Positions 635-44,639 of a DNA stretch of 44,965 nucleotides are shown here, in pieces. The notes beneath the pieces were generated by a model that was not told the DNA's origin, ran no database searches, and was given only the letters and a program-made list of their open reading frames with translations. The stretch is from an archaeon (lineage in GTDB: Archaea > Nanobdellota > Nanobdellia > SCGC-AAA011-G17 > GW2011-AR20). Both the position numbers and the translations under genes were made by a program. The DNA is taken from the NCBI GenBank assembly GCA_002688355.1, contig NZCT01000018.1, positions 1 through 44,965 of the forward strand. The letters are read 5' to 3'. How positions within the stretch are numbered: the first letter of the stretch is position 1; each line of letters starts with the position of its first letter.

Positions 635-636
635 AG

Positions 637-660
637 TTTTTTTTCTTTTTTTTCTTTTTT
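637..660 (+). terminator. Poly-T terminator after the first prepilin gene
   Basis: Three runs of T interrupted by single C residues directly follow the stop codon. Archaeal RNA polymerase terminates on such T tracts. The next gene has its own TATA element at about 672-680, which supports termination here. Confidence 0.6.
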
Positions 661-702
661 AAAATAGGAATATTTATATATTAGCTCTTGTTTTAATAAA
701 TT

Positions 703-1242
703 ATGTTTAATAAAAGAAGTGACAAAAAAGCTCAAGCAGCTATGGAATTTTTAATGACATATGGTTGGGCTATTCTAATAATTCTTGTTGTTTTAGGTGC
801 TTTATTTTATTTAGGAGTTTTTAGTCCAAATATATCAACTTCATGTACTCCTTTTCCACCAATAAGTTCTTGTGATATAAAACTTATTCCGTCGGTTGCT
901 CCTGCTGCTGATACTTTTGAATTATCTATAGTGTACCCTCCAACAATAAATAACGTTGCACTTTTTGGATGGGATTCAACTGCAAACCCTGCTGAGACAG
1001 ATGTTGCTTCTATAGAATTTGATGTCGGTGGGGCTGATTGCGATGTTGATGATTCTACAGACGCAGATAGAGCTCTTGTATCTGGCACTGCAAAAACATT
1101 TACATGCACTAATGTTAGACATGGATTAACTACTGGAGATCAATATGCTGGAGATGTTGTTCTAGAGTATCAATTGCAAGGCAGCACAATAAGTCATAAG
1201 ATAAGATTATCTATAACTGGAACAGTAGAAGAAGAAGAGTAA
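703..1242 (+). CDS. Class III prepilin paralogue
   Basis: This 179-residue paralogue of the preceding pilin has the same AQAAMEFLMTYGWAI core, with Q11 at the predicted cleavage site, E15 at +5 and a membrane helix at about 16-38. The C-terminal domain has diverged and carries an acidic EEEE tail. The TATA element (TTTATATA, 673-680) lies about 26 nt before the ATG, so this message should be leaderless, unlike its neighbour. A stretch of 46 nt (729-774) is identical to 208-253 of the first gene even at synonymous sites. Five nt separate the stop from the next gene, so it may be transcribed with it. Confidence 0.85.
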   Translation: MFNKRSDKKAQAAMEFLMTYGWAILIILVVLGALFYLGVFSPNISTSCTPFPPISSCDIKLIPSVAPAADTFELSIVYPPTINNVALFGWDSTANPAETDVASIEFDVGGADCDVDDSTDADRALVSGTAKTFTCTNVRHGLTTGDQYAGDVVLEYQLQGSTISHKIRLSITGTVEEEE

Positions 1243-7312: not shown

Positions 7313-8116
7313 CCATCTTTCTGGTTCTTCTCTTTTTAATAAACCTTCAATTGAATAAATAGCAACTTTTTCTGCTCCAGAATTATTAATCATATCTAGA
7401 TCTTGTTTGAATTGTTCTATGTTTTTGTATGTCTTTTCATGTTTTAAAATTCCAGGACCTATTAAACCTATAGAAAACATTACTTTGTTTTTGTATTTTC
7501 TTACTGCTCTTCTTGTCCATAATGACATATAGATCCTAATTAAAGGTCTTAATACTTGGCCGGAAAATGTTGTATAACACATTATATTTTTAACCATATT
7601 TTCTTTAGGTTCTATGTACATTCCTTGTCTTTTAAGGTACCATTTAGCTAGGGGGAACTCATTTATTATTAATTGAATATTATTTACTACAGTTTCTACT
7701 TTTGTTTTTTTAGACAATTTGTAAATGAAATCTTTTAGATAATCATTATTCTTTCCTTTTTTGAAAATTTGTTTAATTGCTAGAGATATTATTTTAAGAT
7801 TGGTGTACTTCCACTTTGGAACTGGAGGTTCTAGATCTATTTTTATGTTTAAATTTTCGAATTGTTTTAATGAGTTTATATCCTCTTTTTCTGTAAAGCC
7901 AGAGAACCAGTAACCTTTATCCATATCTAAAATAGGCCAAACACTTAATTGAATATATTTGCTTGTTACTTTTTCTTGGATATTTTGGAAATCTTTTAGT
8001 GTTTTAGAAGCTACGTAAATTTCTATGTTGAATTTTAATCTTGAGATTGTTTTGTTAAGAAAAGTCCAATCTACTTTATTAGGAAATTCACACCAGAAGA
8101 TAACTTTTTTTAACAT
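7277..8116 (-). CDS. Unknown protein, possibly TIM-barrel-like
   Basis: I do not recognise this 279-residue protein. It starts MLKKVIFWCEFPNKVDW. The order of elements resembles a barrel: a strand at each of VIFWCEF, IEIYVAS, LSVWPILD and IKIDLEPP, and near the end MFSIGLIGPGIL and AEKVAIYSIEGLL. The IDLEPP and YSIEGLL segments supply acidic residues where a glycosidase-type barrel would place catalytic groups, but this is only a pattern reading. It overlaps the end of the glycosyltransferase by 36 nt on the other strand. A functional link to glycan metabolism is possible and unproven. Confidence 0.6.
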   Translation of the reverse strand: MLKKVIFWCEFPNKVDWTFLNKTISRLKFNIEIYVASKTLKDFQNIQEKVTSKYIQLSVWPILDMDKGYWFSGFTEKEDINSLKQFENLNIKIDLEPPVPKWKYTNLKIISLAIKQIFKKGKNNDYLKDFIYKLSKKTKVETVVNNIQLIINEFPLAKWYLKRQGMYIEPKENMVKNIMCYTTFSGQVLRPLIRIYMSLWTRRAVRKYKNKVMFSIGLIGPGILKHEKTYKNIEQFKQDLDMINNSGAEKVAIYSIEGLLKREEPERWLFFIKNYLVSL

Positions 8117-8151
8117 ATAAAATTAAAGAACTAAATAGTATATAACTTTTT

Positions 8152-8862
8152 TTATCCTAAGTAATTTAGGTCTCTTTTATCTTTTGCCTTTGTTGCTGCT
8201 TTACTTTGATCCATTAAAGTTTTTAGTTTAGCTTCGAATTCTTCAGCCTTTTTTAATAATGGTTTGTAATCAACTTTTAGATTTAAATATTTATCAAGAG
8301 ATTCTACTATTCTTGCTGCCCCTCTAGAATCTGGTAATCCAGAAGAAGTTTCTACGAAAATGCAAGACATTGGTAAGCCAGTGTGTAATAACATAGAACC
8401 TGTTACACCCATTATTATTCCTTCTTTTAGTTTTTCTACTTTTATATCTTCAAATTTCTTTTTACTTTTCTCAATATTAGAATAATAAAAACTTTTAGGA
8501 TTAGTTTTAGGTGCTTGTGGATTTCCAACACCTTCTAAGGAAATTAATTCTTTAGCTTTTAGTTGTTTACATAATTGATAAACCATATCTGATATTTTCC
8601 ATTCTAAACCATTAATGCTTGTTACAGCGTGAATTATTACGATATTATGCTTTTTAGAGTAAAATAAACCAAGAGGTTCTACAACTTCTGAATTATGGAT
8701 AGCTGCTATGGGCATTATTTCATGTGTAAATAGCTTTCCCATTGGTTTTGCGTTTAAATGTTCAACTAGAAATTCTGTTGCTATTGTTCCTACAAATCCA
8801 AAGCCTGGAAAACCTTCAATAACAATTGGATTCTTTGGTCTTTTACTTAATCTTAGTTCCAT
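8152..8862 (-). CDS. PAC2 family protein (proteasome assembly chaperone-like)
   Basis: This 236-residue protein belongs to the PAC2 family. The conserved glycine-rich EGFPGFGFVGTIA is near residues 17-29, and VTGSMLLHTG and the SGLPDSRGAARIVESL segment are also typical. The C-terminus is a charged helix (LLKKAEEFEAKLKTLMDQ) continuing to a lysine-rich tail. Archaeal PAC2 homologues such as PbaB assist proteasome-related complexes. No proteasome subunit is in the window. A TATA element (CTTTATAAATA, about 8888-8900) lies about 30 nt before the start. Confidence 0.85.
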   Translation of the reverse strand: MELRLSKRPKNPIVIEGFPGFGFVGTIATEFLVEHLNAKPMGKLFTHEIMPIAAIHNSEVVEPLGLFYSKKHNIVIIHAVTSINGLEWKISDMVYQLCKQLKAKELISLEGVGNPQAPKTNPKSFYYSNIEKSKKKFEDIKVEKLKEGIIMGVTGSMLLHTGLPMSCIFVETSSGLPDSRGAARIVESLDKYLNLKVDYKPLLKKAEEFEAKLKTLMDQSKAATKAKDKRDLNYLG

Positions 8863-13562: not shown

Positions 13563-15746
13563 ATGGCTGAAACACTAGCAGAGAAAATTAGTAGGATTAT
13601 GAGAACTCCTAAATTTATTAGGAATATTTGTACTTCTGCTCATATTGATCATGGAAAAACTACTTTCTCAGATAATATTATGTTAGGTGCTGGAATGGTT
13701 TCTGAAGAACTAGCTGGTTCACAATTAGTTTTAGATTTTAGGGAAGATGAGAAAGAAAGGGGAATTACTATTGATTCTGCGAATGTCTCTATGGTTCATG
13801 AAGTTGAAGGAGAAGAATTTTTAATTAATTTGATTGATACTCCAGGGCATGTTGATTTTGGTGGTGATGTTACTCGTGCAATGCGTGCTATTGATGGAAC
13901 TATTATTTTAGTTGATGCTGTTGAAGGTGTTATGCCTCAAACTGAAACTGTTATTAAACAAGCATTACGAGAAAGAGTAAAACCTTGTTTATTTATTAAT
14001 AAAGTTGATAGATTAATTAGAGAAGTTAAGTTAACTCCTGAAAAAATGCAGGAACGATTTATGAAAGTAATTGAAGATGTTAATAAGTTTATTAGTTCTG
14101 TAGCTCCTGAGGAATTTAAAGATGTGTGGAGAGTTAATGTTCAAGATGGAAGTGTAGCCTTCGGAAGTGCTTTTCATAAATGGGGTTTATCTGTTCCTTA
14201 CATGCAAAAAAATGAAATTACATTTAAAGATGTTATTGACGCTTACGAGGGAGATAATTATCAAGAACTAGCAAAGAAAGCTCCTTTGCATCAAGTTGTT
14301 TTGAATATGGTAATTAAACATCATCCTAATCCTGTTGAATCTCAAAAATATAGAATCCCTAAAATTTGGAGAGGAGAATTAGAGAGTAATGAAGGTAAAT
14401 CTTTAGTTAATTGTGATCCTAATGGACCTGTTGCTTTTGTAGTTACTAAAATTGTTATTGATAAACACGCTGGGGAAATTGCAGCTGGAAGGTTATTTTC
14501 CGGGACACTAAAACAAGGAGAAGAAATTTATATGAATTTAGCTAAGAGAAGATTAAGAATTCAACAAATTAATTTGTATAAAGGACCAACAAGAATTAAT
14601 GTTGATAATGTTCCCGCTGGAAATATTGTAGGTATTGTAGGGTTAAAGGATGCTTTTGCTGGTGAGACTGCATCAACAGAAGAGATTGAACCTTTTGAAG
14701 CTATTAAGCATATTTTTGAACCTGTTGTGACTAAAAGTTTGGAAGCTAAGAAACCAAGTGATTTACCGAAGTTAGTTGAAGTTTTAAAACAAGTTAATAA
14801 AGAAGATCCTAGTATTTCTGTTCAAATAAATGAAGATACTGGAGAAAATTTAGTATCTGGAATGGGAGAATTACATTTAGAAGTTATTGAAAATAGAATT
14901 AGAACTGAGAAAGATTTAGATATTATGACTGGTAATCCTATTGTTGTTTATAGAGAAACTGTTACTGGTAAAAGCCCTGAAGTTGAAGGTAAAAGTCCAA
15001 ATAAACATAATAAATTTTACATAACTGTTGAACCATTAGAACAAGAAGTTTATGAAGCTATTAAATCTGGAGATATTCCTGAAGGAAAGTTAAAGAAGAA
15101 AGATCAAGATGTTACTGATAAATTTGTTAAATTAGGTTATGATACTAAGGTTGCTAGAAAAATTTCTGATGTTTTCAAAGGTAATGTTTTAATTGATGCT
15201 ACTCGTGGAATAGTACATATTGGAGAAATTATTGAGATGGTGATAGATGGATTTGAACAAGTAATGAGTGAAGGCCCATTAGCTAGAGAACCTGGTTTTA
15301 ATATTAAAGTAAGTTTGACTGACACTAAGTTACATGAAGATGCTATCCATAGAGGTCCTGCACAAGTATTACCTGCTGTTAGAGATGCTATAAGAGGAGC
15401 TATGAATAAAGCATCTTGTTTGATATATGAGCCAATGCAAATTGTTCAGATTGAATCTCCTGCTGAGTATTTAGGTGAGATAAGTAAATTAGTCCAAAAT
15501 AAAAGAGGGCAATTATTAGATATGAATCAAGAAGGAGAACATATATCTGCTCAAGCTAAATTACCTGTTGCTGAAATGTTTGGATTAAGTAATGATTTAA
15601 GAAGTTCTACTGGCGGTAGAGGAAATTTCTATGTTGTAGATCAAGTATTTGAGAAGTTACCTCATGATTTACAAGATAAGATTATTAAACAGATTAGAGA
15701 AAGAAAAGGATTGAAGGTTACTGAAGAAGTTGAGGAAGAGAGTTAA
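13563..15746 (+). CDS. fusA: Translation elongation factor aEF-2
   Basis: This 727-residue factor drives ribosomal translocation. G1 is AHIDHGKT (26-33), G3 is DTPGH (92-96) and G4 is NKVD (146-149). H596 in AIHRGPAQ is the site converted to diphthamide in archaea and eukaryotes and ADP-ribosylated by diphtheria toxin. All five EF-G/EF-2 domains appear present. A CTTAAAAAG element lies about 26 nt before the ATG. The stop codon overlaps the stop of the convergent repeat-protein gene by 4 nt. Confidence 0.97.
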   Translation: MAETLAEKISRIMRTPKFIRNICTSAHIDHGKTTFSDNIMLGAGMVSEELAGSQLVLDFREDEKERGITIDSANVSMVHEVEGEEFLINLIDTPGHVDFGGDVTRAMRAIDGTIILVDAVEGVMPQTETVIKQALRERVKPCLFINKVDRLIREVKLTPEKMQERFMKVIEDVNKFISSVAPEEFKDVWRVNVQDGSVAFGSAFHKWGLSVPYMQKNEITFKDVIDAYEGDNYQELAKKAPLHQVVLNMVIKHHPNPVESQKYRIPKIWRGELESNEGKSLVNCDPNGPVAFVVTKIVIDKHAGEIAAGRLFSGTLKQGEEIYMNLAKRRLRIQQINLYKGPTRINVDNVPAGNIVGIVGLKDAFAGETASTEEIEPFEAIKHIFEPVVTKSLEAKKPSDLPKLVEVLKQVNKEDPSISVQINEDTGENLVSGMGELHLEVIENRIRTEKDLDIMTGNPIVVYRETVTGKSPEVEGKSPNKHNKFYITVEPLEQEVYEAIKSGDIPEGKLKKKDQDVTDKFVKLGYDTKVARKISDVFKGNVLIDATRGIVHIGEIIEMVIDGFEQVMSEGPLAREPGFNIKVSLTDTKLHEDAIHRGPAQVLPAVRDAIRGAMNKASCLIYEPMQIVQIESPAEYLGEISKLVQNKRGQLLDMNQEGEHISAQAKLPVAEMFGLSNDLRSSTGGRGNFYVVDQVFEKLPHDLQDKIIKQIRERKGLKVTEEVEEES

Positions 15747-17356
15747 TTTAAACTATCTGTTCCTGGAATTTTTAATTCTATTATTTTTTGATAATAACCT
15801 TCTATTTTTTTACCTAGATTATAAATAAACTTATCTTTTGAATTTGTTAACCTTTTTAATTTATCCATTATTCCCTTGGGATCTTTATTAAAAATAGGTT
15901 GATAATAATCTATAGATATTTGATAAATTATATCTTCTGTTTTTAGTTTTATTTCTAGGGGTAAATCAGCTATTATTTCTATTGGAGAAATAATCTCTCC
16001 TTTTATTGTTGTAAATGGGTATATAGCATTAGATATTTTTCTTTCTGTTAATAATCTAGCTATATTTTCTTCATCTTGTATTCTATCCGGGAATAGTTCT
16101 TTTAGTATAGATGTCACATCTTTTGTATATCCATTTACTGTAGATAAAGAAGCTACTTTATTAGCTGTTTCATTTTCTTCTAAGAATTCTTGTAATTGTT
16201 CTTTTGTTTGTATTTGTTTGTTTGAGTAACCAAATATTTCTCTTGCATTATTTAATGTACCATAATGTTTTAACATAGCAAAATATAATGTAGAATTTTT
16301 TTTCTTTAGTTCTCTATATTTTGGGAAATCTCCAAGTTCTTTTATAATTTCCATTAGATCTTTCTTTATATCATCTTTGCTTTTATAGTACCCATTTGGT
16401 TTTTTCAATGGTTCAAACCCAAATTCCTTTCTTGCATTATTTAATGATTTATAATGCTTATTTATAGCTCCTGGCAAAGAACCATGACTTTCTTTTAATT
16501 CCTCTGACTTTGGAAAATATCCTAATTCTTCTATAAGATTGCTTAATTCTTTATCTACATTAGGTTTATCTTGCCAATACCCTCTTGGTCTTTTATTTTC
16601 CTTAAACCCTAACACTTCTCTTGCATTATTTAATGTGTCATGATGTTTTTTTATTGCACCATATAGAGATCCGTTATAATCTCTTATTTCATTTGTTATG
16701 GGAAAATGTCCTAATTCTTCTATAAGATTGCTTAATTCTCTATCCACATTATCTTTATTGTTCCAATAACCTTTTGGTTTTGTTTCAATCTCAAATCCAA
16801 ATGCTTCTCTTGCATTATTCACATTATCATAATGTTTTATTACCGCATTAACCAAAGAACCATTTTCATCCATTAGTTCTCTCGAACTAGGAAAATGCCC
16901 CAATTTTTCTATTAAGATTTTCAGTTCTCTATTAACATTATCTTTATCATTCCAATACTTTTGAGGTTTCTTCTGAATATCAAATCCAAATGCTTCTCTT
17001 GCATTATTTATACTTCCATAGTGTTTTACTATTGCTCTATTTAAAGAACTATTTTTTTCATTTAAATCGGAACTACTTGGAAAATCTCCAAGATTTTGTA
17101 TAATTTCTTTTATCTCTCTATTTAAATTTTTTCTATCATCCCAATAGTTACTTTTTTTCCTGATTGGTTCAAACCCAAATTCCTTTCTTGCATTATTTAT
17201 ACCACCATAATGTTTTTTTATGGATTTTTCAATACTTGAATTTATTGCACTTAATTCTCTACTTATTGGAAAGTATCCCAATTCTTTGATTATCTCTTCT
17301 AACCCTTTATTTAGATTATCAATATCATTCCAATATCCATTTGGTTTATATTCCAT
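15743..17356 (-). CDS. Protein with six tandem HNH-associated repeats
   Basis: This 537-residue protein has residues 4-381 made of six tandem units of 62-64 residues. Each unit reads roughly GYWxDKxN, then an aliphatic helix, LGxFP, a second helix, KHYGxxNNAREAFGF. This matches the 'homing endonuclease associated repeat' (HNH_repeat) type, small helical DNA-binding modules. The C-terminal 156 residues (382-537) form an unrelated mixed domain with no HNH or other nuclease motif that I can see. The ATG lies 1 nt after the stop of the SNF2-methyltransferase gene, so the two are one operon and probably one system. DNA binding is a family-based inference; sequence-specific reading by six modules is speculation. 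Confidence 0.82.
   Translation of the reverse strand: MEYKPNGYWNDIDNLNKGLEEIIKELGYFPISRELSAINSSIEKSIKKHYGGINNARKEFGFEPIRKKSNYWDDRKNLNREIKEIIQNLGDFPSSSDLNEKNSSLNRAIVKHYGSINNAREAFGFDIQKKPQKYWNDKDNVNRELKILIEKLGHFPSSRELMDENGSLVNAVIKHYDNVNNAREAFGFEIETKPKGYWNNKDNVDRELSNLIEELGHFPITNEIRDYNGSLYGAIKKHHDTLNNAREVLGFKENKRPRGYWQDKPNVDKELSNLIEELGYFPKSEELKESHGSLPGAINKHYKSLNNARKEFGFEPLKKPNGYYKSKDDIKKDLMEIIKELGDFPKYRELKKKNSTLYFAMLKHYGTLNNAREIFGYSNKQIQTKEQLQEFLEENETANKVASLSTVNGYTKDVTSILKELFPDRIQDEENIARLLTERKISNAIYPFTTIKGEIISPIEIIADLPLEIKLKTEDIIYQISIDYYQPIFNKDPKGIMDKLKRLTNSKDKFIYNLGKKIEGYYQKIIELKIPGTDSLN
16214..17347 (-). repeat. Six tandem ~189-bp coding repeats
   Basis: These are the DNA units for the six protein repeats. 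Unit starts on the minus strand are near 17347, 17155, 16969, 16780, 16591 and 16402. The units are clearly diverged in sequence, so they are old duplications rather than recent copies. The most constant part encodes NNAR(E/K)xFGF, visible on the plus strand as recurring CTTGCATTATT. Confidence 0.85.
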
Positions 17357-17357
17357 T

Positions 17358-19544
17358 TTATTTTTCTCTAATCTTTTTCCTTAGATCATTTTTTGTATAA
17401 TCTCCAAAAAATTTAAGAAGATTTGAATCTAAAATTGTATCATTTACATCATCTACTTTATCTAAAGTATAAACTCCAAATTTGGATTTTTCAGATTGCA
17501 TAATTCCACTATATTCACCCATTATATTAAAACCTAATTTTTTAGCTGCAAAGCTGAATCTATCATTATCATTCTCATCTAAATAACTAGAATTAAGTAA
17601 TATTATTGATTTTCCATTTTTTCTTAAGGTTCTATTTATTTCTATTAATACATTTTCTCTTTCATTATTTTCTGGATTTACCATTTGATATGCTAATGAA
17701 CAAACAATTAAATCTATACTTTTATCTTTTATTGGAAGAGTATCCATTGGAGATCTCACAAGTTTATTTTCTTTATATAGTTCTTTCCCCTTGTGCAACA
17801 TGAATGGATCTATATCTAAACTTATAACAGGTTCATTAAGTGAAATTCCTAAAGCACCTATCCCACATGCTAAATCCAATTTTACTTCTAATGGGTTTTC
17901 TTTTTCTAATTCTTCTATGATTCCTAGATAGATATTAGAAGCATTTTTAGACATTTTAAATTTGGGATATAATTCAGCAACACTCTGAGCTGATTCTGGG
18001 TCTCTCTTCAAAAATCTTGATACTTTATCTTTTCCTTGACCTCTAAAACGTATAAAATGGCTAACTAATTTTTGATCTATTGATTTGGTTGATTCTTTTA
18101 TTTTCCTTGTTTTTTTTGCTTCCTGGAAATCCTCAAGATCTTTTTTCGATAATGTAATTCCACTTGTCATATATCTAAATCTTGTTTCTTTATTTCTGTT
18201 TAATCCAAGAATAGCTTCTTCAATACTTTCTACATCTTCAACCTTTGTGACTAGATTGTAAATGTTAAGTCTATCTTTTTTTATTTCACCATTTCTTAAA
18301 GACCTTCTATTTCTTTGACTAAGTTCAGCAGGTGTCCATGGGATGCCCAAATGAACTATCCCTGTAGCAGCTGTTAAATCCACACCTTCATTCATTGTTG
18401 TTGTTGCAATTAGAATTTTATAATCTGGATCAAATTGAAATAATTTTCTTCTTATTTCCCTTTCACTTTCCAATCCTTTCTTTGAATCAGAACTTACATC
18501 ACCATCTATAACTAAAACACCATATTCTTTATATCTATCATATAATTTATCAACTACACCTGTTTTAAGATTTGTAAAGACAACAACTTTACCATTGTTT
18601 CCTATCTCATCATTAATTATAGAATCTAAAGCCTGATATTTTAAAGATTCAATTTTTTTAAAATTATTCCTTAAACTTGGATTTTCTATAAATCTAGGGT
18701 CAACTAAAGATGGATCTAATGAGGCTTTTTCTAATTGCATTAATTTACTTCCAAAAGAAGTTTCTTGTTCAAGAACACTATAATAAACATCTGCATTATC
18801 TCCTGATAAAGGCACTATAATATCTTGTTCTCTAACTTCTGGAAGATTTTCTTGTATATAATCTTTAGTTTCTCTTCTTATCATTCTTTCATGAAGAATT
18901 CTTTTAACCGCTTCTGGATCATTTTTATAAAGATACAAGAATTTACTCTTGACTGATTTTATTTCTTTTGGATCTTCTAAGTTTACAGGATAGTTATTTG
19001 GCTCTAAAAGAGAAAATAACATATACAAATCTACTATGCTATTTGGAATAGGTGTTCCTGATAGCGCACTTAGATATTCTGTTTGATCTGCTATTCTTTT
19101 TACAGTTGTTGTTCTTAATGCACTTGGGTTTTTTGCATTGTGAACTTCATCTAGTATTAAATGTTGAAAATTTAGATCCTTTAATTGGTCTGCTCTACCG
19201 TTTTCTTTTGCTATTGACGACATTAAAGAATAACCTCCAATAACCCAATCTGATTTTATGGCATTTTCTAAACCTTGATAAAAGTTACTTGTATCTAATA
19301 TTTGGATTTTTGGATTGTAATGAGGGGCCCATTTCTTTATTTCTCTAGCCCAATGTTCTCTAACAGAACTTGGTGCTATAACTAAAGTTTTAAAATCTGA
19401 ATTTCCTTCTTTTTCTCTCATTAAAGAATCAGCAAATATTGATTGAGATGTTTTATACATGCCCATTTCATCTGCTAAAAGAGCTCTTTTTCTATTAAAA
19501 AGTTCATAGGCTCCTATAATTTGGAAAGGTTTTATATCTTCCAT
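17358..19544 (-). CDS. SNF2-family helicase fused to a SAM methyltransferase
   Basis: This 728-residue fusion has an SNF2 ATPase core at about residues 1-445: motif I ADEMGMYKT (24-32), motif II DEVH (132-135), motif III SGTP (162-165), motif V NEGVDL (385-390) and motif VI QRNRRSLRNGE (410-420). A linker follows, then a class I methyltransferase at about 535-690 with motif I LDLACGIGALG (556-566), LDID (576-579) and DLIVCSLAYQ (611-620). Motif I lacks the usual glycine before the lysine (Y30 in place of G), and motif VI has R413 for G and E420 for Q. The methyltransferase has no NPPY and looks like Methyltransf_11 rather than a DNA adenine methylase. It is the first gene of an operon with the repeat protein. 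Confidence 0.88.
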   Translation of the reverse strand: MEDIKPFQIIGAYELFNRKRALLADEMGMYKTSQSIFADSLMREKEGNSDFKTLVIAPSSVREHWAREIKKWAPHYNPKIQILDTSNFYQGLENAIKSDWVIGGYSLMSSIAKENGRADQLKDLNFQHLILDEVHNAKNPSALRTTTVKRIADQTEYLSALSGTPIPNSIVDLYMLFSLLEPNNYPVNLEDPKEIKSVKSKFLYLYKNDPEAVKRILHERMIRRETKDYIQENLPEVREQDIIVPLSGDNADVYYSVLEQETSFGSKLMQLEKASLDPSLVDPRFIENPSLRNNFKKIESLKYQALDSIINDEIGNNGKVVVFTNLKTGVVDKLYDRYKEYGVLVIDGDVSSDSKKGLESEREIRRKLFQFDPDYKILIATTTMNEGVDLTAATGIVHLGIPWTPAELSQRNRRSLRNGEIKKDRLNIYNLVTKVEDVESIEEAILGLNRNKETRFRYMTSGITLSKKDLEDFQEAKKTRKIKESTKSIDQKLVSHFIRFRGQGKDKVSRFLKRDPESAQSVAELYPKFKMSKNASNIYLGIIEELEKENPLEVKLDLACGIGALGISLNEPVISLDIDPFMLHKGKELYKENKLVRSPMDTLPIKDKSIDLIVCSLAYQMVNPENNERENVLIEINRTLRKNGKSIILLNSSYLDENDNDRFSFAAKKLGFNIMGEYSGIMQSEKSKFGVYTLDKVDDVNDTILDSNLLKFFGDYTKNDLRKKIREK

Positions 19545-31757: not shown

Positions 31758-33833
<2,076 letters not shown>

Positions 33834-35432
33834 TTACTCAGTTTTGCTGATTTTTAATCCCATTACATAGAGTTCATCTGCTAATGCTCTCATTGAATCA
33901 AAATTTGCAGTTGGATCTTGATGAGCTCTTCCACAAAGCTCCATAAACTCATTATATGCTATTTCTTGAGCAAGTAAATATGTTGTATATCTTGTGAATT
34001 TACTTTCATCATCTCTTACTCTTTTATAATCTGAATGACCACTATTGATATTTATTGATCCATATGTAGGATCTAATTCACTTCTTAGAGTTTGTTTTTC
34101 TATATCGAACTCTACGAAGTGTGTATTATAATTTCCAGAAATATTTCTTCTTGCTTTTCTTGTTGGCCTATTAACTCCATCTTCAGAAGGTTTTACTGCT
34201 TTTTCTCCTCCTAACCCTGGCCCTGGTTTAGGTTGAGGCCCTGGTCTAGTTCCAGTTTCTTTCTCAGGAGAAGCTATTTGATTATCATCATCAACTGTAG
34301 GCCTTACTGAATCTCCAGGATTTCCTACAATCCATGCAGCATTATGTTCTTTAAAATCTCTAAAAATAACATCAAAATTTCTTAAAATAGTGTCAGAGAT
34401 TTCTAGCTCTCTTGTTCTTTTCTCTCTTGTTTTTAATACATTAATTTGATTATTAAGATAAGCCTCTTGCTCTTTTAATGTATCTATAAATAATTGATAT
34501 CTTGTTCCTTGTCTTACTAAATTATCTCTTTGTGGATTTAATGTTAAAAAATCTTCATTAATTTCCCCTAGTAATCTTCCACTTCCCCATGGCAAATCAT
34601 CAAGTTCATCAAGTGAACTTATTGAGTTAAGAACTTTAACACCTTTATTATGATGCTTTACCTTTTCAGTTTTACCATTAGGATTAATAAATAAATATAA
34701 ATGAACATTACCTATATCAGATTCTCTATCGCTATTTGTGTATTCTATTTGAACTATTTCATCTAATACTTTTTCTCCTCTGTATTCTGCTGGTTCCACA
34801 GAAATTCTTTTTTGACGTGTTCCAATAAATCCCACTTCTGCTTCAAGAATTCCTTCTCTAATTAAAGGGGAATAGAAATCAGCTATCATATTTTTGATAT
34901 GACTAGGAGTAAAGTAACGACCTATAATATCTCTGTTTATTCCATTTAGAATTACTTCTGTTCCATGTTCAAAATCCCCAAAAGGTAAATCTCTTGCATG
35001 AACTTCATCTAACTCTGCATCCATTGAACCATTAGTCATTGTTAAATTATTAAAAAATCCATTATTACTATCAACTTGTCTTGTGTATATTTGACATGTT
35101 CTTGCACCACATGAAACATATGCATGTAACCCTAGTCCTTTTTCCCCCCTTGTAGATCTTACCTCTCTATTTGTTGAGGCACCAATACTTTGAGGTAATG
35201 TTCTTAACTTTTCATGACTCATTCCTACACCGTTATCTCTTAGAACTACTGTTCCTGAATTTTTATTAACAAAAATTTTTAAGTTTATTGGATCATTTCC
35301 TAATCTATTCACTGCATCTACGCTGTTTGATACATATTCTTTAAATGCACTTGGAGGAGTACTATACATTTGCTGAATCTGTCTTATAATGAAAGAAGGA
35401 TCTGCAATTTCATAACTAATACGTTCTGTCAT
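33834..35432 (-). CDS. MORC/MutL-like GHKL ATPase
   Basis: This 532-residue protein has the GHKL ATP site: N-box KEYVSNSVDA (31-40), D66-N-G-V-G70 and RGEKGLGLHAY (95-105), and HGT at 156-158. A second domain with GRLLGEINEDFLTLNPQRD (285-303) matches the S5-type transducer end of MORC/Hsp90-like proteins. A coiled segment (315-345) and a flexible Pro/Gly linker (395-410) follow, then a C-terminal domain (435-532) of unknown type. No nuclease motif is seen. It is preceded by an HTH protein gene 8 nt upstream, and gyrB lies 180 nt downstream. Prokaryotic MORC-type ATPases are known from restriction-like operons; a DNA-clamp role is inferred. Confidence 0.82.
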   Translation of the reverse strand: MTERISYEIADPSFIIRQIQQMYSTPPSAFKEYVSNSVDAVNRLGNDPINLKIFVNKNSGTVVLRDNGVGMSHEKLRTLPQSIGASTNREVRSTRGEKGLGLHAYVSCGARTCQIYTRQVDSNNGFFNNLTMTNGSMDAELDEVHARDLPFGDFEHGTEVILNGINRDIIGRYFTPSHIKNMIADFYSPLIREGILEAEVGFIGTRQKRISVEPAEYRGEKVLDEIVQIEYTNSDRESDIGNVHLYLFINPNGKTEKVKHHNKGVKVLNSISSLDELDDLPWGSGRLLGEINEDFLTLNPQRDNLVRQGTRYQLFIDTLKEQEAYLNNQINVLKTREKRTRELEISDTILRNFDVIFRDFKEHNAAWIVGNPGDSVRPTVDDDNQIASPEKETGTRPGPQPKPGPGLGGEKAVKPSEDGVNRPTRKARRNISGNYNTHFVEFDIEKQTLRSELDPTYGSININSGHSDYKRVRDDESKFTRYTTYLLAQEIAYNEFMELCGRAHQDPTANFDSMRALADELYVMGLKISKTE

Positions 35433-35440
35433 TTTATTTT

Positions 35441-36028
35441 TTACCTTTTTGTTTTATAATCTACATCTAACATCCATTCATTAAGAGGATCTTCTTTGAA
35501 ATAAGTATTAAATAATGTAATCAAATATCCTGCATCTCTTTTGTCTATTACTTTTCCAAGTTGTTGCCTATCTTTTAATGAAGCTTTTTTTAAATCATCT
35601 AGAGATTCTATTAAGCCATAAAATAAATCACTAATTCTATTAAGTTTTTCAGAATAAGTTTCTTCTGGTGAAATTGTCTCTCTTAAATTTTTTATTTCTG
35701 CTTTTAAATTTTTTTCTAAATCATTTAATCCTTTTAAAATATCTTCGTTAGGCTGTGTTAATCTAGAGCTTAGTGTTTTTGTTTCAAATCCCTCATCCCT
35801 AAATTCTTCTTGTTCATTATATCTTTGTCCCAGATAATCATCTATTTTATTTTTTTTCTCTAGTGGCATCTCAGTTGAATTTGCACTAAAATATCTTCGG
35901 ATCGTTTCACCACTTTCACCAAGGTCTTCTGAAAATAATTTCCAAGATAACTTATTTTTTTTCATATATGATCTTACTTGAAGCTTATAATCTTCAGAAA
36001 CTGGTACTTTTTCTATTTTTTTTGCCAT
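35441..36028 (-). CDS. HTH and coiled-coil partner of the GHKL ATPase
   Basis: This 195-residue protein has a lambda-repressor-like helix-turn-helix at about 15-50 (NKLSWKLFSEDLGESGETIR), then a linker and a long coiled-coil region (LKGLNDLEKNLKAEIKNLRE). The C-terminal part is helical with TLFNTYFKEDPLNEW. It is the first gene of the operon, 8 nt before the ATPase gene. A GCTTTTATAAC element (about 36046-36056) lies about 22 nt before the start. It may recruit the ATPase to DNA or repress the operon. Confidence 0.7.
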   Translation of the reverse strand: MAKKIEKVPVSEDYKLQVRSYMKKNKLSWKLFSEDLGESGETIRRYFSANSTEMPLEKKNKIDDYLGQRYNEQEEFRDEGFETKTLSSRLTQPNEDILKGLNDLEKNLKAEIKNLRETISPEETYSEKLNRISDLFYGLIESLDDLKKASLKDRQQLGKVIDKRDAGYLITLFNTYFKEDPLNEWMLDVDYKTKR

Positions 36029-36147
36029 TTGTTTAAATTTTATTTGTTATAAAAGCGATGAATAAGCTTTAAAATCTTATCTTTTTTAATAATTCTAGAG
36101 TAATAACACAGCAATAAACTTATATATTTATCTATTTCATAAAAACT

Positions 36148-37041
36148 ATGGAAAACTTAACAGAAAAATTAAATAGACTTGCAAGCGAGAGACAAGAATT
36201 AGAAGAAGGAGTAAATACTAACTGGCAAAATACCTTACCAGAATATGTTGAAACTTTAAGATCATACGTAAGTTCTTTAACAGTAAACACAGATAGATCT
36301 GTTCAAAATCACGGAATAAATCTAGAAAAAGAAACAAAAAAATCCATGGAAAAACATTCACAATTAATTGATGTTTTAAGTACATACGCTCCTAAACAAA
36401 CTTCTGATACAGAAACAAAAGAATCAAAATTAGCAGCATTAGCAGAAGCAACTGATGAAGATCTTGAAACTATAAAACGAAGTCCTGTAATGGACATTAC
36501 AATAACGTATGAAGGTACTATAAATAGAATCAAGGAAGAAGCAGAACAATTTAGAGAAAGAGGATATGCAACTTCAACTGAGTTAATTCCTTTATTAGGA
36601 TTAGATACAAAGAATAACCGTAGCCAAAGAGCAGTATATGCACAAGCAATTAAAAATCTAAATGACATAGGATATTTTGTAAGTATTACTAAAGATGCTA
36701 ATGGAAGTACATATTTCTTAGCTGCAAATGAAGAGCAATTGGATGTAGATGCAATAAAAACAGATATTGCAGCAGGTTTACCAAATGACGATATTACGAA
36801 AAAACATGGTATAACAGATTACTCAATTAGAGCATATAAAGCTCAAATTACTAGAAAGAATAAAAGACAAGAGATGATAGCAAAATCTAAATTAGATAAT
36901 AAAGCAATAAGAGAAGATATTGAATCAGGTTTACCAAATGATGAACTTAAAGAAAAATACCCTGATTTAAAAGAACCATCTATTAGAGCATTTAGAGCTC
37001 AAATTACTAGATCAAAAAAAAAGTTGGAAACGAAAGAATAA
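36148..37041 (+). CDS. Coiled-coil protein with winged HTH and two tandem HTH modules
   Basis: This 297-residue protein has a helical/coiled N-terminus (1-110), a winged-helix-like domain (about 132-195), and two copies of a module of about 38 residues: residues 201-238 (DIAAGLPNDDITKKHGI) and 252-290 (DIESGLPNDELKEKYPDL), each ending in AxxAQITRxxK. One further copy is in the protein at 38369-39715. It is divergent from the HTH-ATPase operon, with a CTTATATATTT element about 25 nt before its ATG. DNA binding is likely; the system role is unknown. Confidence 0.7.
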   Translation: MENLTEKLNRLASERQELEEGVNTNWQNTLPEYVETLRSYVSSLTVNTDRSVQNHGINLEKETKKSMEKHSQLIDVLSTYAPKQTSDTETKESKLAALAEATDEDLETIKRSPVMDITITYEGTINRIKEEAEQFRERGYATSTELIPLLGLDTKNNRSQRAVYAQAIKNLNDIGYFVSITKDANGSTYFLAANEEQLDVDAIKTDIAAGLPNDDITKKHGITDYSIRAYKAQITRKNKRQEMIAKSKLDNKAIREDIESGLPNDELKEKYPDLKEPSIRAFRAQITRSKKKLETKE

Positions 37042-37097
37042 TAAAAATAAAAAATAGTTTAAGTTCAATATTTTCTGAAAGAGGTATACATTTTTAT

Positions 37098-37301
37098 TTG
37101 CAATCTAAAGAATATGATGTATTAAGGGGAGAGGTAAATGAATTAGACCCTTCTGTTGATATTCCAACAAGAGAAGAGATAAGTGTTTACTATAAAAGAT
37201 GGGGTGATTTTATGAAAGACATGGGCTTACCTTCGAGAAAAAAAATTTTAGATATGTTAAACGATGTTAGAGAAGGTTTGTTAGATGATTTATCTATGTA
37301 A
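37098..37301 (+). CDS. Short ORF, possible gene remnant or HNH-repeat-like domain
   Basis: This is a 67-residue frame starting at TTG. The segment DIPTREEISVYYKRWGDFMK followed by DMGLPSRKK resembles one helical unit of the repeat type seen at 15.7-17.4 kb. The open frame continues upstream of the TTG for about 15 codons without an ATG, so the true start is uncertain and the ORF may be a 5'-truncated remnant. It ends directly before the next ATG (37302), so translation could be coupled. Confidence 0.4.
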   Translation: MQSKEYDVLRGEVNELDPSVDIPTREEISVYYKRWGDFMKDMGLPSRKKILDMLNDVREGLLDDLSM

Positions 37302-38309
37302 ATGGTAAAATATTCAATACTAGAGAAAGAAGGATTTGTTTCATTAAAGGAAGAATTTTTACGTAGATTAGAATTAATTAGAGAAGAGAATCCTTCAATA
37401 TATTCCCCTTTTTTAAATGAAGATATAGTAGAATTATATTATAATAGTGTTGACAATTTTTTATTACATGGTTTATTTGATAGATACAACGCGTTAAGGG
37501 AAAGAGGCTTTAACCGAAAAAAAATTTGTGAGAAAATTGGAATAGATTATGATGAATCAGATTATTTATTAGGCGATGTAGATCAAGATGCTTTATTAAA
37601 TGAATGTGATTCTTTAGATTTTTTATTAAACAATGAAATATTTGGTGTTGTTAATGCAAATGGCGAAAATAAAAAAAGAATTAGAAATTTATTTCCAACG
37701 TTTATAGAGGATCATTTACTTGAAAATACTGATCAAATTAGTTACACTGGATTGGAAAATGTAAATTTTAGAAGTTATGTAACTCTTGCAAGAAATTTAA
37801 ATCAACTTTCTGTTGATAGAAGTCTAATTATCGAGGCTGGTTTAAGAAATTTTAATATAATGAATTCCATTAAACAATACGCAGCTATTTGGGGAGATGA
37901 AGGTTCACATTTATTTGATAATTTAATAATAGAAAAAGGACTAATGAGTGATGTCTTTCAACATATGTATTCTGATACTCACAGGTTTAATGTTGTAAAT
38001 TTAGATTTTGATGGACAATTTTCTCCTAATAAAGAATATACTATTAAATTATTATTTAGAAATAAATTGGTAGATACTCCTGCAATGCTTTTTGTAACTT
38101 TAAATAATAATGAACACAAAAAACTGTGGTTAAAACATTGGTATGATGAGAATGCTGATCAGCATGATTTATTGGATAAAACAATAAGAAAATATTCTGA
38201 AAATAAAAGTGTAGAATTAGTTTATGAAGAGGAATATAGATATGGTGTTTCTGATGAGAAATATAAAGATGGTTCTAAAATGTTATTTTTTGCTTATTTA
38301 ATTAAATAG
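37302..38309 (+). CDS. Unknown protein with possible HTH and Rossmann-like part
   Basis: This 335-residue protein has a possible HTH at about 60-85 (LRERGFNRKKICEKIGIDYD). The second half has strand-helix units (SLIIEAGLRNFNI; FNVVNLDFDGQFS; AMLFVTLNNNEHK) that resemble strands 1, 4 and 5 of a class I methyltransferase-like Rossmann fold. The glycine-rich SAM motif is not evident, so it may be an inactive or divergent form. It directly follows the short TTG ORF. Confidence 0.5.
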   Translation: MVKYSILEKEGFVSLKEEFLRRLELIREENPSIYSPFLNEDIVELYYNSVDNFLLHGLFDRYNALRERGFNRKKICEKIGIDYDESDYLLGDVDQDALLNECDSLDFLLNNEIFGVVNANGENKKRIRNLFPTFIEDHLLENTDQISYTGLENVNFRSYVTLARNLNQLSVDRSLIIEAGLRNFNIMNSIKQYAAIWGDEGSHLFDNLIIEKGLMSDVFQHMYSDTHRFNVVNLDFDGQFSPNKEYTIKLLFRNKLVDTPAMLFVTLNNNEHKKLWLKHWYDENADQHDLLDKTIRKYSENKSVELVYEEEYRYGVSDEKYKDGSKMLFFAYLIK

Positions 38310-38368
38310 TTACTTTAGAATGGTTACAAAACGATAGATTTATAAAGGGTTTGTCTAACTAATTATAT

Positions 38369-39715
38369 ATGGGAATGGAATATTTAAATAAAAAAACTAG
38401 AGAACTAGAAAATTTAGTAAAACAAGTAGATGAAACTAAATTAGAAATTAAAGCTGCTAGAGAAGAAGCTATTAAACAATTAGATACTCAATATGAAGAG
38501 GCAACTAGTAATTTACAAGTTATCTTACATAATGCTGAAGTTTCTGGAATAGATGTTGATACTGCGGCAAAAGAAGAAATTCAAGTATCACAATATGCTA
38601 AAGGAAGAAAACAATTTTTTGCAGATTTAAGAGAATTTATAGATAATTATGGAATACCTATAGAGCCAACTCCTTTAACTCAAGAGGAAAGAAAAGAAGT
38701 TAAAGAAGAACAAGAGGAGAAAGTAGATACATCTTATGATAAACCTGCAACTAAAGAATTAGACAAAGATAGTTTATATGCTGATATGAGAAGTGGTATG
38801 CCTAAAGAGGATGTTATTGAAACTTATGGTATTACTGAAAATCAATATACACGTTTTAAAGCTCAATTAACAAGAGAAGATAAAGGAATAAAATCATATA
38901 AAAGTTCTCTTGATGATAAAGAAAAGGAAGAAGTTAGAGATGCAATTGTTTTATTGTATTCAGAGAATGAACCTATAAATAGTACTAATATCTCAAAACT
39001 TTTAGGCATTGGGAAACAAGGCAAGAAAGTAAGTATTGGAGTTTATTTAAAAGAATTAAATGAAGGGGGCTTACTTCAAGAAACTAACGATAAGAAGAAG
39101 AATGTTACAGAATATAATTTAAACGAAGACAAAGGAGATTTTGAAATATCATTAATAACTGATGAAGAAAAAAGAAAAAATTATACTTCTAGTAATGCAA
39201 ATAAAGGACCAGATGAGATATCAGATATTGTTGATTCTAAAGAAATGGAAAAACCATTAGATCTAAAAACTAGAATTGAATATTCTGCATTTTTTGAAGA
39301 ACCTGCATTTTTAGTTGATCAAATAAAAAGCGAATTGGGAGAACACATTGATGAGATTCATGATATCCTTGTAAATGGATTCGGTTATAAATTTACTCAA
39401 CCTGGAAATGGTGGATCTGGTGTATATCAAGTTCCAATGAATGAAGAGAAAGAAATAATTAATATGACTGAACAAGAGAGAAATAGAAGAGTGCGTGTTG
39501 CATTCCGTGATTGGAAAAAAGGAATAGCATCAACGCAAAAGAAATTATTATCAAAAATAGGTTTAGAATATGTTAAAACTCCTTCAAAAAGAAGTCCTCA
39601 TGGAGAGATAAGAAGAATAGATAACCATAACAGATCAACCCCAACAGCTGGCTCAACTGGTGATTGGAGATGTGGTAGAAACATGGCTTCAGATATAATT
39701 AAACTCTTAGATTAA
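38369..39715 (+). CDS. Multi-domain coiled-coil/HTH protein
   Basis: This 448-residue protein has a long N-terminal coiled coil (about 5-55), the same HTH-like module as the 36148 gene (133-171: DMRSGMPKEDVIETYGI ... FKAQLTRE), a winged-helix domain (about 185-250: INSTNISKLLGIGKQGKKVS), an acidic linker, and a C-terminal domain (388-448) with KRSPHGEIRRIDNHNRS and WRCGRNMASDIIKLL. The last part recalls HicA/dsRBD-like small folds, weakly. A TTTATAAAG element (38340-38348) lies about 25 nt before the ATG. It probably acts with the neighbouring DNA-binding proteins. Confidence 0.65.
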   Translation: MGMEYLNKKTRELENLVKQVDETKLEIKAAREEAIKQLDTQYEEATSNLQVILHNAEVSGIDVDTAAKEEIQVSQYAKGRKQFFADLREFIDNYGIPIEPTPLTQEERKEVKEEQEEKVDTSYDKPATKELDKDSLYADMRSGMPKEDVIETYGITENQYTRFKAQLTREDKGIKSYKSSLDDKEKEEVRDAIVLLYSENEPINSTNISKLLGIGKQGKKVSIGVYLKELNEGGLLQETNDKKKNVTEYNLNEDKGDFEISLITDEEKRKNYTSSNANKGPDEISDIVDSKEMEKPLDLKTRIEYSAFFEEPAFLVDQIKSELGEHIDEIHDILVNGFGYKFTQPGNGGSGVYQVPMNEEKEIINMTEQERNRRVRVAFRDWKKGIASTQKKLLSKIGLEYVKTPSKRSPHGEIRRIDNHNRSTPTAGSTGDWRCGRNMASDIIKLLD

Positions 39716-39773: not shown

Positions 39774-40391
39774 ATGGATAGAATAATTAAGTTATTAATC
39801 GTATCAGAATTATTTTTATTTACAGGATTTTCTTTAATTGATCCTTTTTTAGCTGTTTTTGTTAAAGAAGATTTGGTTAATGGAAGTTTGATTGCTGCAG
39901 GATTTGCTACAACTTTATTTTTAGTTATAAAATCTGTTGTGCAATTGCCATTTTCAAAATATATTGATAGCCATAGGGATAAATTAAGATTTTTGATCAT
40001 TGGATCTTTGATTGTAAGTACTGTTCCATTTATTTACATATTTGCAACTAGAATTGAGCATATTTATATTGCTCAGATTATTAGAGGTGTTGGTGCTGGT
40101 TTAGCTGTCCCAACATGGTTAGGTTTGTTTACAACACATATTGACAAAGGTAAGGAAAGTTTTGAATGGAGTATTTATAGCACTTCTTTAGGAATGGGTA
40201 TGGCAGTATCAGGATTAGTTGGAGCTACAATAGCTTCTTTCTTAGGTTTTAAAATTACATTTATCATTGTTGGAATATTGGCTTTAATAGGTTCTAGTAT
40301 ATTATTTAAACTTGAGGTACAGGAACATAAGAAAAAAGGCAAAGAAGTTGGTGATATTATGATTAAAAGACATAAAATGCACCATCCTTAG
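39774..40391 (+). CDS. Half-size MFS-type membrane protein
   Basis: This 205-residue protein has six predicted membrane helices and looks like the N-terminal half of a major facilitator transporter: SLIDPFLAVFVKEDL, then the loop FSKYIDSHRDKLRFL (motif A-like) and IRGVGAGLAVPTWLG. Normal MFS proteins have 12 helices in about 400 residues. The stop is followed immediately by the CCA enzyme gene on the other strand with a 4-nt overlap, so no second half is missing through frameshift within view. It may act as a dimer. Confidence 0.72.
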   Translation: MDRIIKLLIVSELFLFTGFSLIDPFLAVFVKEDLVNGSLIAAGFATTLFLVIKSVVQLPFSKYIDSHRDKLRFLIIGSLIVSTVPFIYIFATRIEHIYIAQIIRGVGAGLAVPTWLGLFTTHIDKGKESFEWSIYSTSLGMGMAVSGLVGATIASFLGFKITFIIVGILALIGSSILFKLEVQEHKKKGKEVGDIMIKRHKMHHP

Positions 40392-43116: not shown

Positions 43117-43605
43117 TTAATTGAACTTTTTTAGGCTTAGAAACGCCTTAATTTCATCATAGATATTATATGTATCGTTTTTTAATTCATCATTATAACG
43201 ATCTAGTTTATCTTTTATGAATAGTTTATCGTATAAACCTCTCCAGACCTTTAGAAATGGTTTTTGTTCCCATCTCTGTTCATAATCTGATTCTATGTAA
43301 GATTCAAAAGTAATGTTAAAAGCTCCTCGTAGAAATTTCTTGTTCTTAACTGTAGTTTCATGTATATTCGAGCCAGTGATTCTTACTTCTATTACAAATT
43401 GAGCATAATCATCTACTTTCTTTTCAGCTCTCCAGAATATTTTAACGTTATTTTCTGTTCTAGCGTCAACGTGATATTCTTGTTCATAAAGAGAATAATC
43501 TCTTGAAGTTAACCAATCTTGTATTAATCTAAAGACTTCTCCTGTATCTAGAATATCATCATGAAATACTCTTAAAGGGAAAACAACATAATCGAATTCT
43601 GCCAT
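43117..43605 (-). CDS. Member A of a three-paralogue unknown family
   Basis: This 162-residue protein shares a common plan with the next two genes. The first half ends in a W-containing strand (IFWRAEKKVDDYAQFVIEV), a second half holds ITFESYIESDY, then KPFLKVWRGLYDKLF, and a closing helix IYDEIKAFLSLKKF. There are no cysteines or metal sites. It lies last in a row of three on the minus strand. Family not recognised. The beta-rich, aromatic core suggests a small ligand- or lipid-binding fold, which is a guess. Confidence 0.6.
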   Translation of the reverse strand: MAEFDYVVFPLRVFHDDILDTGEVFRLIQDWLTSRDYSLYEQEYHVDARTENNVKIFWRAEKKVDDYAQFVIEVRITGSNIHETTVKNKKFLRGAFNITFESYIESDYEQRWEQKPFLKVWRGLYDKLFIKDKLDRYNDELKNDTYNIYDEIKAFLSLKKFN

Positions 43606-43645
43606 ATTGTTTAAAATATCTGTTTATTTAATAAATTATTGTTTT

Positions 43646-44152
43646 TTATAATCTTCTTAACGAAAAGAACTCTTTTATAGCATCTTGGAATTGATATGTT
43701 TTTATGTAAACTTCTCTTTTATATGCACCTAATCTTTTTCTAGCTACAACATTAAAGTATATTTTTTTAAGTAGTGAGAATTTCTTCCACTCATCATCTG
43801 TTATTTCAACTTCGCTAGCTATTCTAATTTCAAAATCTCCTTTGTCTAATTTTCTCTTTACATCTCCTACTTCTCCTTCTACGTCTTTCATTCCTACAAC
43901 TAAAAAAGTTATTCTAAAATTAAATTTATAATATTCACTAACTTGATGAGAAGCTACCCAAGCTATCTCTAATAGTCTAGTGTCACCTGTTCTTCTTTCT
44001 ACATATTTTTTTTCTAATTTATGATCATTATCCACATAACCACGATCTTCTAGCCAAAGCTTCATAAATCTATATAAAACCATAAAATCAGTTGTTCCAA
44101 CCCATCTTACTTTTATTCCTGCTGAAGGTGTTAAAGGATATGTTGTTCCCAT
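43646..44152 (-). CDS. Member B of a three-paralogue unknown family
   Basis: This 168-residue protein is the most diverged member: IAWVASHQVSEYYKFNFRI replaces the W..K.DY..F.IEV segment, ITDDEWKKFSLLKKIYFNVV the middle helix, and FQDAIKEFFSLRRL the final helix. Its ATG follows the stop of member C by 1 nt, so the two are cotranscribed. Function unknown. Confidence 0.6.
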   Translation of the reverse strand: MGTTYPLTPSAGIKVRWVGTTDFMVLYRFMKLWLEDRGYVDNDHKLEKKYVERRTGDTRLLEIAWVASHQVSEYYKFNFRITFLVVGMKDVEGEVGDVKRKLDKGDFEIRIASEVEITDDEWKKFSLLKKIYFNVVARKRLGAYKREVYIKTYQFQDAIKEFFSLRRL

Positions 44153-44153
44153 T

Positions 44154-44639
44154 TTATCTATAATGTTTTAATAAACTTTTAATTAAATCATTAAAATCTA
44201 GAGTTTCTTTTTCTAATTTATTTAAATGTTCTATGATTTTTTTCTTGAATATGAAATTGTTATATATATAAAATAGGAATTTTGTAAATGGGTTTTTTTG
44301 GAATTGCTCTGCATAATCTAAGTCTACATGAGAAATTAAATTAATCTTTATCTCTCCATGATATATATTTCCAACTTTTTTAACACCAATGATGAGTATT
44401 TTTACTTCAATTGTATATTGAACATAATCATTTATCTTTCTCTCTCCAAGCCAACCCATTATAATTTCATTACCTTGTGGAAAATTTTTCTCTATTTGTT
44501 CACTTTCTGTAAAATCATATTTATATCTATCAAACCATGGTGGAGCATTTTTGTAAAAGTGATCTATGTCTATAGGACCTTTTACGTGGATAATAAATCC
44601 CTTAGGTGGGGAAACCATTACTTTAGATGAAAAAGTCAT
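44154..44639 (-). CDS. Member C of a three-paralogue unknown family
   Basis: This 161-residue protein contains MGWLGERKINDYVQYTIEV, LISHVDLDYAEQFQKNPF and a closing FNDLIKSLLKHYR. These align with the same positions in members A and B. It is the first of the three in transcription order and lies 42 nt after the Sec61-beta gene on the same strand, so all may share the Sec61-beta promoter. Function unknown. Confidence 0.6.
   Translation of the reverse strand: MTFSSKVMVSPPKGFIIHVKGPIDIDHFYKNAPPWFDRYKYDFTESEQIEKNFPQGNEIIMGWLGERKINDYVQYTIEVKILIIGVKKVGNIYHGEIKINLISHVDLDYAEQFQKNPFTKFLFYIYNNFIFKKKIIEHLNKLEKETLDFNDLIKSLLKHYR

Follow-up and report, generated by a model that had tools for sequence, protein, structure and literature searches.

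What kind of genetic unit separates the gyrase genes from a transporter gene in a small archaeal genome, and what might it do there? The question is raised by positions 33834-39715 of contig C18 (NZCT01000018.1; 44,965 nucleotides), which we analysed whole and call the window; it belongs to a woesearchaeal-type genome of 962,007 bases in 32 contigs (G000). The listing of open reading frames (ORFs) places six of them in this island, with gyrB on one side and a half-length gene of the major facilitator superfamily (MFS) on the other, much as a first-pass annotation, made from the letters alone, had described before suggesting an integrated element or a defence island. The island represents a conserved, fast-evolving archaeal gene set, in which a GHKL ATPase with intact nucleotide motifs (family B) always follows a protein with helix-turn-helix (HTH) and coiled-coil parts (family A) and often lies near a methyltransferase-like protein (family C) and HTH-repeat proteins (family D). 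That this A-B-C-D cassette works as one functional unit is, in our judgement, highly probable; that it serves defence, a reading that rests on gene neighbourhoods, is finely balanced. The best overall explanation, in which we place as much belief as doubt, would be a DNA clamp cassette controlling foreign DNA.

The family B protein of the window (33834-35432, minus strand, 532 residues) carries an N-terminal GHKL domain, matched by PF13589 at 1.6e-9, above the Pfam cut-off, and followed by a second domain that appears S5-like, a disordered-looking linker and a C-terminal domain of its own (RSxLD...IN..H.DY). Invariant in 8 of 8 aligned members are E32, N36, D39, D66, G68, G70, G96, K98, G101, G157, T158 and R302, and the motifs E..xN.xD, DxGxG, GxxxxG and GT place B in the GHKL superfamily. 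Residues 282-302, with the motif G.....F..L...R at 289-302, are reminiscent of the middle domain of Hsp90 and the catalytic arginine there, and a PDB profile search led from B to Hsp90 N-terminal domains (3.9e-10). Hsp90/HtpG and topoisomerase VI subunit B share the GHKL fold, but B falls far below their NCBIfam cut-offs and the island holds no chaperone or topoisomerase partner gene. The best NCBIfam match, to the BbrUII/HgiDII family of restriction enzymes (NF050001, 7.7e-8), covers only residues 21-170, within the shared GHKL part, and its 31.3 bits do not reach the membership cut-off of 550.

MORC and paraMORC proteins offer a further comparison. According to Iyer, Abhiman and Aravind (2008; PMC2292703), restriction-modification loci are where these GHKL+S5 proteins occur, together with helicases, methylases and nucleases. 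Like B, paraMORC and prokaryotic MORC proteins have, in that text, an N-terminal GHKL domain with all ATP motifs, joined to an S5-like domain, putative in B, with a conserved basic residue; like the cassette, they are patchily distributed, with DNA methylase, endonuclease, HNH or SNF2 genes near some loci. Unlike MORC as characterised there, B lacks the signature GhXhhpXXRhl at the equivalent place: on reading the alignment, the invariant R302 comes 13 residues after the invariant G289, and at position 294 the 8 rows have D, N or V in place of G. B differs further in its constant partner A, its own C-terminal domain and the absence of a constant helicase or nuclease. Set beside paraMORC1-5, which combine GHKL and S5 domains in restriction-modification neighbourhoods and carry extensions particular to each family, B has the GHKL part, a putative S5 part and restriction-type neighbours at 5 of 11 loci. 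The cassette is probably paraMORC-like in its working, while B is not a MORC. The GHKL-Shedu protein VcSduA is, like B, a GHKL ATPase and acts in an anti-phage system, but PMC12137116 gives it a C-terminal PD-(D/E)XK nuclease (DUF4263), for which B has no Pfam match.

The upstream partner of B, the family A gene (35441-36028, minus strand, 195 residues), lies 8 nucleotides (nt) away in the window. Its HTH and coiled-coil matches in Pfam are weak (HTH_3 at only E 0.058), and a PDB profile search with A returned nothing convincing; its position is constant. A lies directly upstream of B at 11 of 11 B loci, and the two genes overlap or are at most 8 nt apart at 10 of them, the exception being G023, with a 207-nt gap and Ns inside A. 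The families derive from a clustering of 127 neighbouring proteins, which placed B in 11 loci, A in 11 and C in 7; one member, L085_7006, was wrongly joined to A, the true A of G137 being L085_10663 (aligned and judged by eye).

Family C (37302-38309, plus strand, 335 residues) accompanies the A-B unit at 7 of the 11 loci, on either side and in either direction, at distances of 59-1274 nt. It probably has a class I methyltransferase fold, active or not. Its 16 aligned members, from 14 of 330 class genomes with G014 and G458 added, share the pattern YLGLEG / E / NIM.S / G...D / NLDYxG / TLN. Over the last 200 residues, an acidic residue follows strand 2, a D follows strand 3 and NLDYxG follows strand 4, before a terminal hairpin. 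This residue pattern fits a class I methyltransferase, and we consider it likely that C is methyltransferase-like. Against Methyltransf_31, one divergent member reaches E 0.0058, short of the cut-off, and a PDB profile search with C gave nothing convincing. In a fold comparison that used the first, low-confidence model and is weak evidence, the better-modelled C-terminal half resembled the second halves of Trm11, Trm14 and Trm5, and equally Alba and IF3, at Z < 8.

The plus-strand unit also encodes two D-like proteins. In the first (36148-37041, 297 residues), an N-terminal coil precedes two copies of a 40-residue HTH-like repeat (201-239 and 252-291), ending (A/G)(Y/F)(K/R)AQITR; the second (38369-39715, 448 residues) has a coiled coil, a single copy (134-172) and a C-terminal domain. 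The repeat, with the general ending (Y/F)(K/R)AxxTR, also starts the D proteins. We built a profile from nine copies and ran it against the 1031 proteins of all long loci. Its strong matches (below 1e-15) were confined to the sequences from which it had been made and, in the G006 locus, to the second copy; the new ones lay in a D protein of G058 (5e-8) and a 599-residue protein of G001 (6e-7). Since position had guided the choice of the profile genes, this search checks consistency and does not count as an independent test. The C-terminal domain of the 448-residue protein stands alone in a 174-residue protein near gyrB in G010 and in a 201-residue protein of G066. The G010 segment (L050 5431-9846), upstream of gyrB and at the island's position, holds genes for an HNH protein (ZorE/IscB-like), a 617-residue protein that is PD-(D/E)XK nuclease-like by eye, and the 174-residue protein. 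Behind the first D gene lies a small conserved gene (37098-37301, plus strand, 67 residues, TTG start) with a homologue at the same place in G006 and no Pfam match; homology to HNH_repeat was considered for it and not supported.

The two divergent units flank positions 36029-36147, a gap of exactly 119 nt, as first annotated. Aligned with its G006 counterpart and read by eye, this region is a putative, conserved divergent promoter, in which a TATA-like TTATATAT, kept in G006, precedes the ATG at 36148 by about 28 nt. No Rfam family was found in the island. As for the protein parts that the first-pass annotation had named, GHKL holds on the PF13589 match, HTH and coiled coil have weak matches only, and Rossmann-like fits the 335-residue protein in part.

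How long has the island been where it is? The nearest relative having the locus is G006 (JAGVYY010000046.1), a Candidatus Woesearchaeota metagenome-assembled genome, whose order (L042) reads MFS, 448-residue, 335-residue, 67-residue and 297-residue genes, the divergent 195-residue and GHKL genes, a 199-residue ORF, a 63-residue ORF, gyrB and gyrA; the 199-residue ORF, between the GHKL gene and the gyrB side, is absent from the window. Because all six ORFs recur in the same order and orientation, they are genes and not chance frames. Protein identity to G006 is 58% for the GHKL protein, 44% for the 195-residue, 31% for the 297-residue, 49% for the 67-residue, 61% for the 335-residue and 39% for the 448-residue protein, against 69% for MFS, 78% for gyrB and 77% for gyrA; nonsynonymous divergence (dN) is below synonymous divergence (dS) for all six island genes and the flanks compared. 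At fourfold sites of conserved residues, the third base differs at a fraction of 0.35 of sites in the GHKL gene and of 0.56, 0.50, 0.50, 0.52 and 0.62 in the other island genes, next to 0.55 for MFS, 0.49 for gyrB and 0.53 for gyrA, with saturation expected at about 0.6. The lower GHKL value speaks against a uniform history of the island; a pooled comparison of four island with five flank genes gave p 0.01, but its grouping was picked after the values had been seen, and we do not build on it.

Given the synteny with G006 and the near-saturated synonymous sites, the island has most likely been in its present place since before the G000 and G006 lineages parted, its protein sequences changing fast. 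Recent insertion is rejected on that synteny, the third-base differences and the codon usage, which is that of the contig and host-like. Moreover, there is no tRNA near the island, no att-like repeat bracketing it, and no integrase was seen on reading the contig ORFs or the compared gyrB and island neighbourhoods. With integrase, att repeats and foreign composition all negative and the same place occupied in G006, the island does not qualify as an integrated mobile element, and the sharp-bordered insertion first envisaged finds no support. The island is accessory and conserved as a cassette; mobility has no support here.

The accessory character suggested at the outset was borne out by the distribution of B. 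A search of 117 relatives at E 1e-3 gave matches to B in 11, and eight of these were kept as the full-length family (L003-L008 and two syntenic loci); the other three (G043, G049 and G084), which match only over short segments and no better than E 1e-6, were set aside as GHKL proteins of another kind. B occurs in 3 of 13 family genomes (G000, G002 and G006), in 8 of 103 order, 10 of 378 class and 8 of 371 phylum genomes; these searches and that of the relatives overlap, and the distinct B genomes are 11 (G000, G002, G006, G023, G038, G059, G066, G076, G137, G329 and G458). About 97 kb separate the set from gyrB in G002, and in G059 B and gyrase share one contig, about 18 kb apart. The gyrB surroundings read in other family members (L049-L054, L060, L061) lack B; gene order around gyrB differs in the other family members and left no interval recognisable as an empty site. 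The pattern named at the outset as refuting, one set at one place in all relatives, is not seen. A single-protein query of the genome contigs collection found no relative, and a second query found G006 alone. In the B tree, end branches have a median of 1.89, against 0.23 for EF-2. The tree puts G002 outside its family; horizontal transfer of B on this account was set aside, as the approximately unbiased (AU) test does not reject the family grouping (p 0.129, or 0.387 with fewer rows) and long branches meet.

Several B loci lie near genes of restriction or nuclease type. In G329, an N6/N4 DNA methylase (PF01555, 2.4e-47) and a MamI-type endonuclease (PF09567, 2.5e-34) form a type II restriction-modification pair directly beside A-B. 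In G059 an HNH_3 gene follows B (9.7e-9), and in G038 a methyltransferase upstream of A (PF13847, 1.1e-6) is weakly like Mad2 (PADLOC mad2, 4.5e-11). An SNF2-methyltransferase lies one gene from B in G066 (PADLOC DrmD, 8.4e-13), and in G023 a NERD/HTH protein with PD-(D/E)XK similarity lies two genes past a gene resembling N-terminal nucleophile (Ntn) hydrolases. The same G023 locus (L043) holds genes for two proteins that by eye resemble Ntn hydrolases of proteasome type, at 7737-8681 and 16244-17242; the former lies directly downstream of the GHKL gene and its protein has no Pfam match. Among the adjacent genes scanned or read in G000, G002, G006, G076, G137 and G458, no restriction-type neighbour was recognised; the SNF2-methyltransferase of G000 lies 14 kb from the island.

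As few relatives carry the cassette, sometimes near DNA-modifying or DNA-cutting enzymes, it is possibly an undescribed genome-defence machine; patchy distribution, fast evolution and neighbours favour foreign DNA as its target. In the mechanism we propose, A and B would form one complex, A would bring B to DNA, and B, as a dimer gated by ATP, would clamp around it by means of its S5-like domain. Target recognition or marking might then fall to C and the HTH-repeat proteins, and the whole system would control foreign DNA, joined, at loci that have one nearby, by a cutting or modifying enzyme. Such a clamp, with A as its guide, is proposed because proteins with GHKL and S5 domains close on ATP and so hold DNA, and because PMC2292703 proposes DNA looping between recognition and cleavage sites for MORC and paraMORC. 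A more elaborate version, less likely than not, is offered tentatively: a translationally coupled HTH-GHKL clamp might load on incoming DNA and license a methyltransferase-fold effector (C) without the DPPY motif together with modular HTH-repeat adaptors, with partners swappable from locus to locus (restriction enzymes, HNH, SNF2, radical SAM), as an undescribed defence system that, within the searches made, is restricted to one woesearchaeal DPANN class. Literature listings yielded no description of this cassette.

A number of observations weigh against this defence reading. Restriction- or nuclease-type neighbours at 5 of 11 B loci are a count without a control frequency, and the Pfam scans of neighbours covered chosen ones. 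No nuclease was recognised in the window's island; its proteins found nothing convincing in PADLOC-DB 2.0.0 (best E 0.0015, PtuB1 on a coiled coil), nor did six other B members match PADLOC models at E 0.01. Full-length relatives of B or C were not found in the phage, plasmid and IMG/VR collections. The fold of C is not secured: its models have predicted local distance difference test (pLDDT) scores of 43 and 35, and hhalign, run with the profile of C against single methyltransferases, was uninformative. Furthermore, the island is by synonymous sites as old at its locus as the flanks, unlike most mobile defence genes, and this age and the lack of a nuclease weigh against defence or for a host role. 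The original suggestion of a defence island is possible, with no convincing PADLOC match on one side and restriction-type genes beside some homologous loci on the other.

The host role is the rival that survives best. Eukaryotic MORC and SMCHD1 organise or silence the DNA of their own cells, and A-B-C-D may likewise be a nucleoid or regulator complex acting on the host chromosome, placed beside gyrase because both would deal with DNA topology. Codon choice resembling that of well-kept host genes, a place beside gyrBA also in G006, many DNA-binding parts without a nuclease in the window's set, and the lack of relatives in viral or plasmid collections all suit such a factor. However, the cassette is absent from 10 of 13 family genomes, the gyrase link holds in G000 and G006 only, and the B branches (1.89 against 0.23) fit conflict better than housekeeping; on balance we regard a host factor as rather unlikely.

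The island could also descend from an integrated virus or plasmid, as a remnant or after domestication, with its regulators and DNA-binding proteins surviving. Its patchy distribution, the gyrB-proximal HNH gene and 174-residue gene of G010, and a weak resemblance of B's N-terminal part to GHKL proteins of phages (phrog_6203, 3.1e-11; RIIA, 3.8e-4) speak for this, as do 11 IMG/VR contigs whose GHKL proteins match the N-terminal part of B; in phage and plasmid collections, too, only the ATPase part was matched (3 and 1 records). Yet none of the 11 viral loci holds a relative of A, C or D, the island has no integrase, replication or virion gene and no att-like repeats, and its ORFs are complete, with dN < dS and host-like codons, which makes a remnant improbable. 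Quite improbable, finally, is a chance or shared-promoter union of an A-B pair with an unrelated C-D cassette that has a role of its own: A-B lacks C at 4 of 11 loci and C lacks B in 8 of 14 class genomes, lying with D (short HTH) and E (SANT-like) genes in G018 and G222, E in G121, D in G058, perhaps an HTH-like gene weakly matching D in G324, or a spore-photoproduct-lyase-type radical SAM gene in G014 (L124 4141-5253; PF20903, 3e-26) and G202 (L146 6163-7284; PF20903, 1.7e-38), with nothing recognised in G288 and G302, but A-B and C lie within 1.3 kb of each other in 7 of 11 loci, in varied orders, far above chance for rare genes in genomes of about 1 Mb by an estimate that was not computed.

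Of the flanking genes, gyrB occupies 31758-33653 on the minus strand (NCBIfam) and MFS 39774-40391 on the plus strand (PF07690, 1.1e-22); the latter's 205 residues are half length, and the matching frames of most relatives are likewise short (about 180-220 residues). The gyrB frames of several relatives reach about 1000-1170 residues (for example, L060 8517-11699, L061 9310-12732 and L121 214-3396), their match to the window's uninterrupted gyrB being broken, intein-like, near residue 431 or 499; gyrA frames are similarly long or split in G003 and G012. At 15743-19544 (minus strand), a protein with six HNH_repeat stretches (PF18780, 6.3e-29) adjoins an SNF2 helicase-methyltransferase fusion; the pair recurs in G003 (L118 2115-6205), and a relative of the fusion lies near the GHKL gene of G066 (L048 8415-10988). 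This fusion was rejected as a regular partner of B: at 1e-20 it was matched in 7 of 109 relatives, and among those seven B occurs in G000 and G059 only. Elsewhere in the window, two tandem genes at 185-1242 (plus strand), pilin-like by eye, share an N-terminal AQAAMEFLMTYGWAI segment, and three tandem paralogues of 161-168 residues lie at 43117-44639 (minus strand), with mutual identities of 19-27%.

Few defence systems of DPANN archaea turned up in our literature searches, and such archaea have very small genomes. That a 1-Mb genome keeps a cassette of an ATPase, its fixed DNA-binding partner and a methyltransferase-like protein, and that this cassette evolves at many times the rate of EF-2, points to a function in conflict. 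If the defence reading is true, the theme of ATP-driven DNA clamps in defence, as in MORC and paraMORC, would gain a new architecture, and half a dozen unannotated archaeal families would gain clues to their roles.

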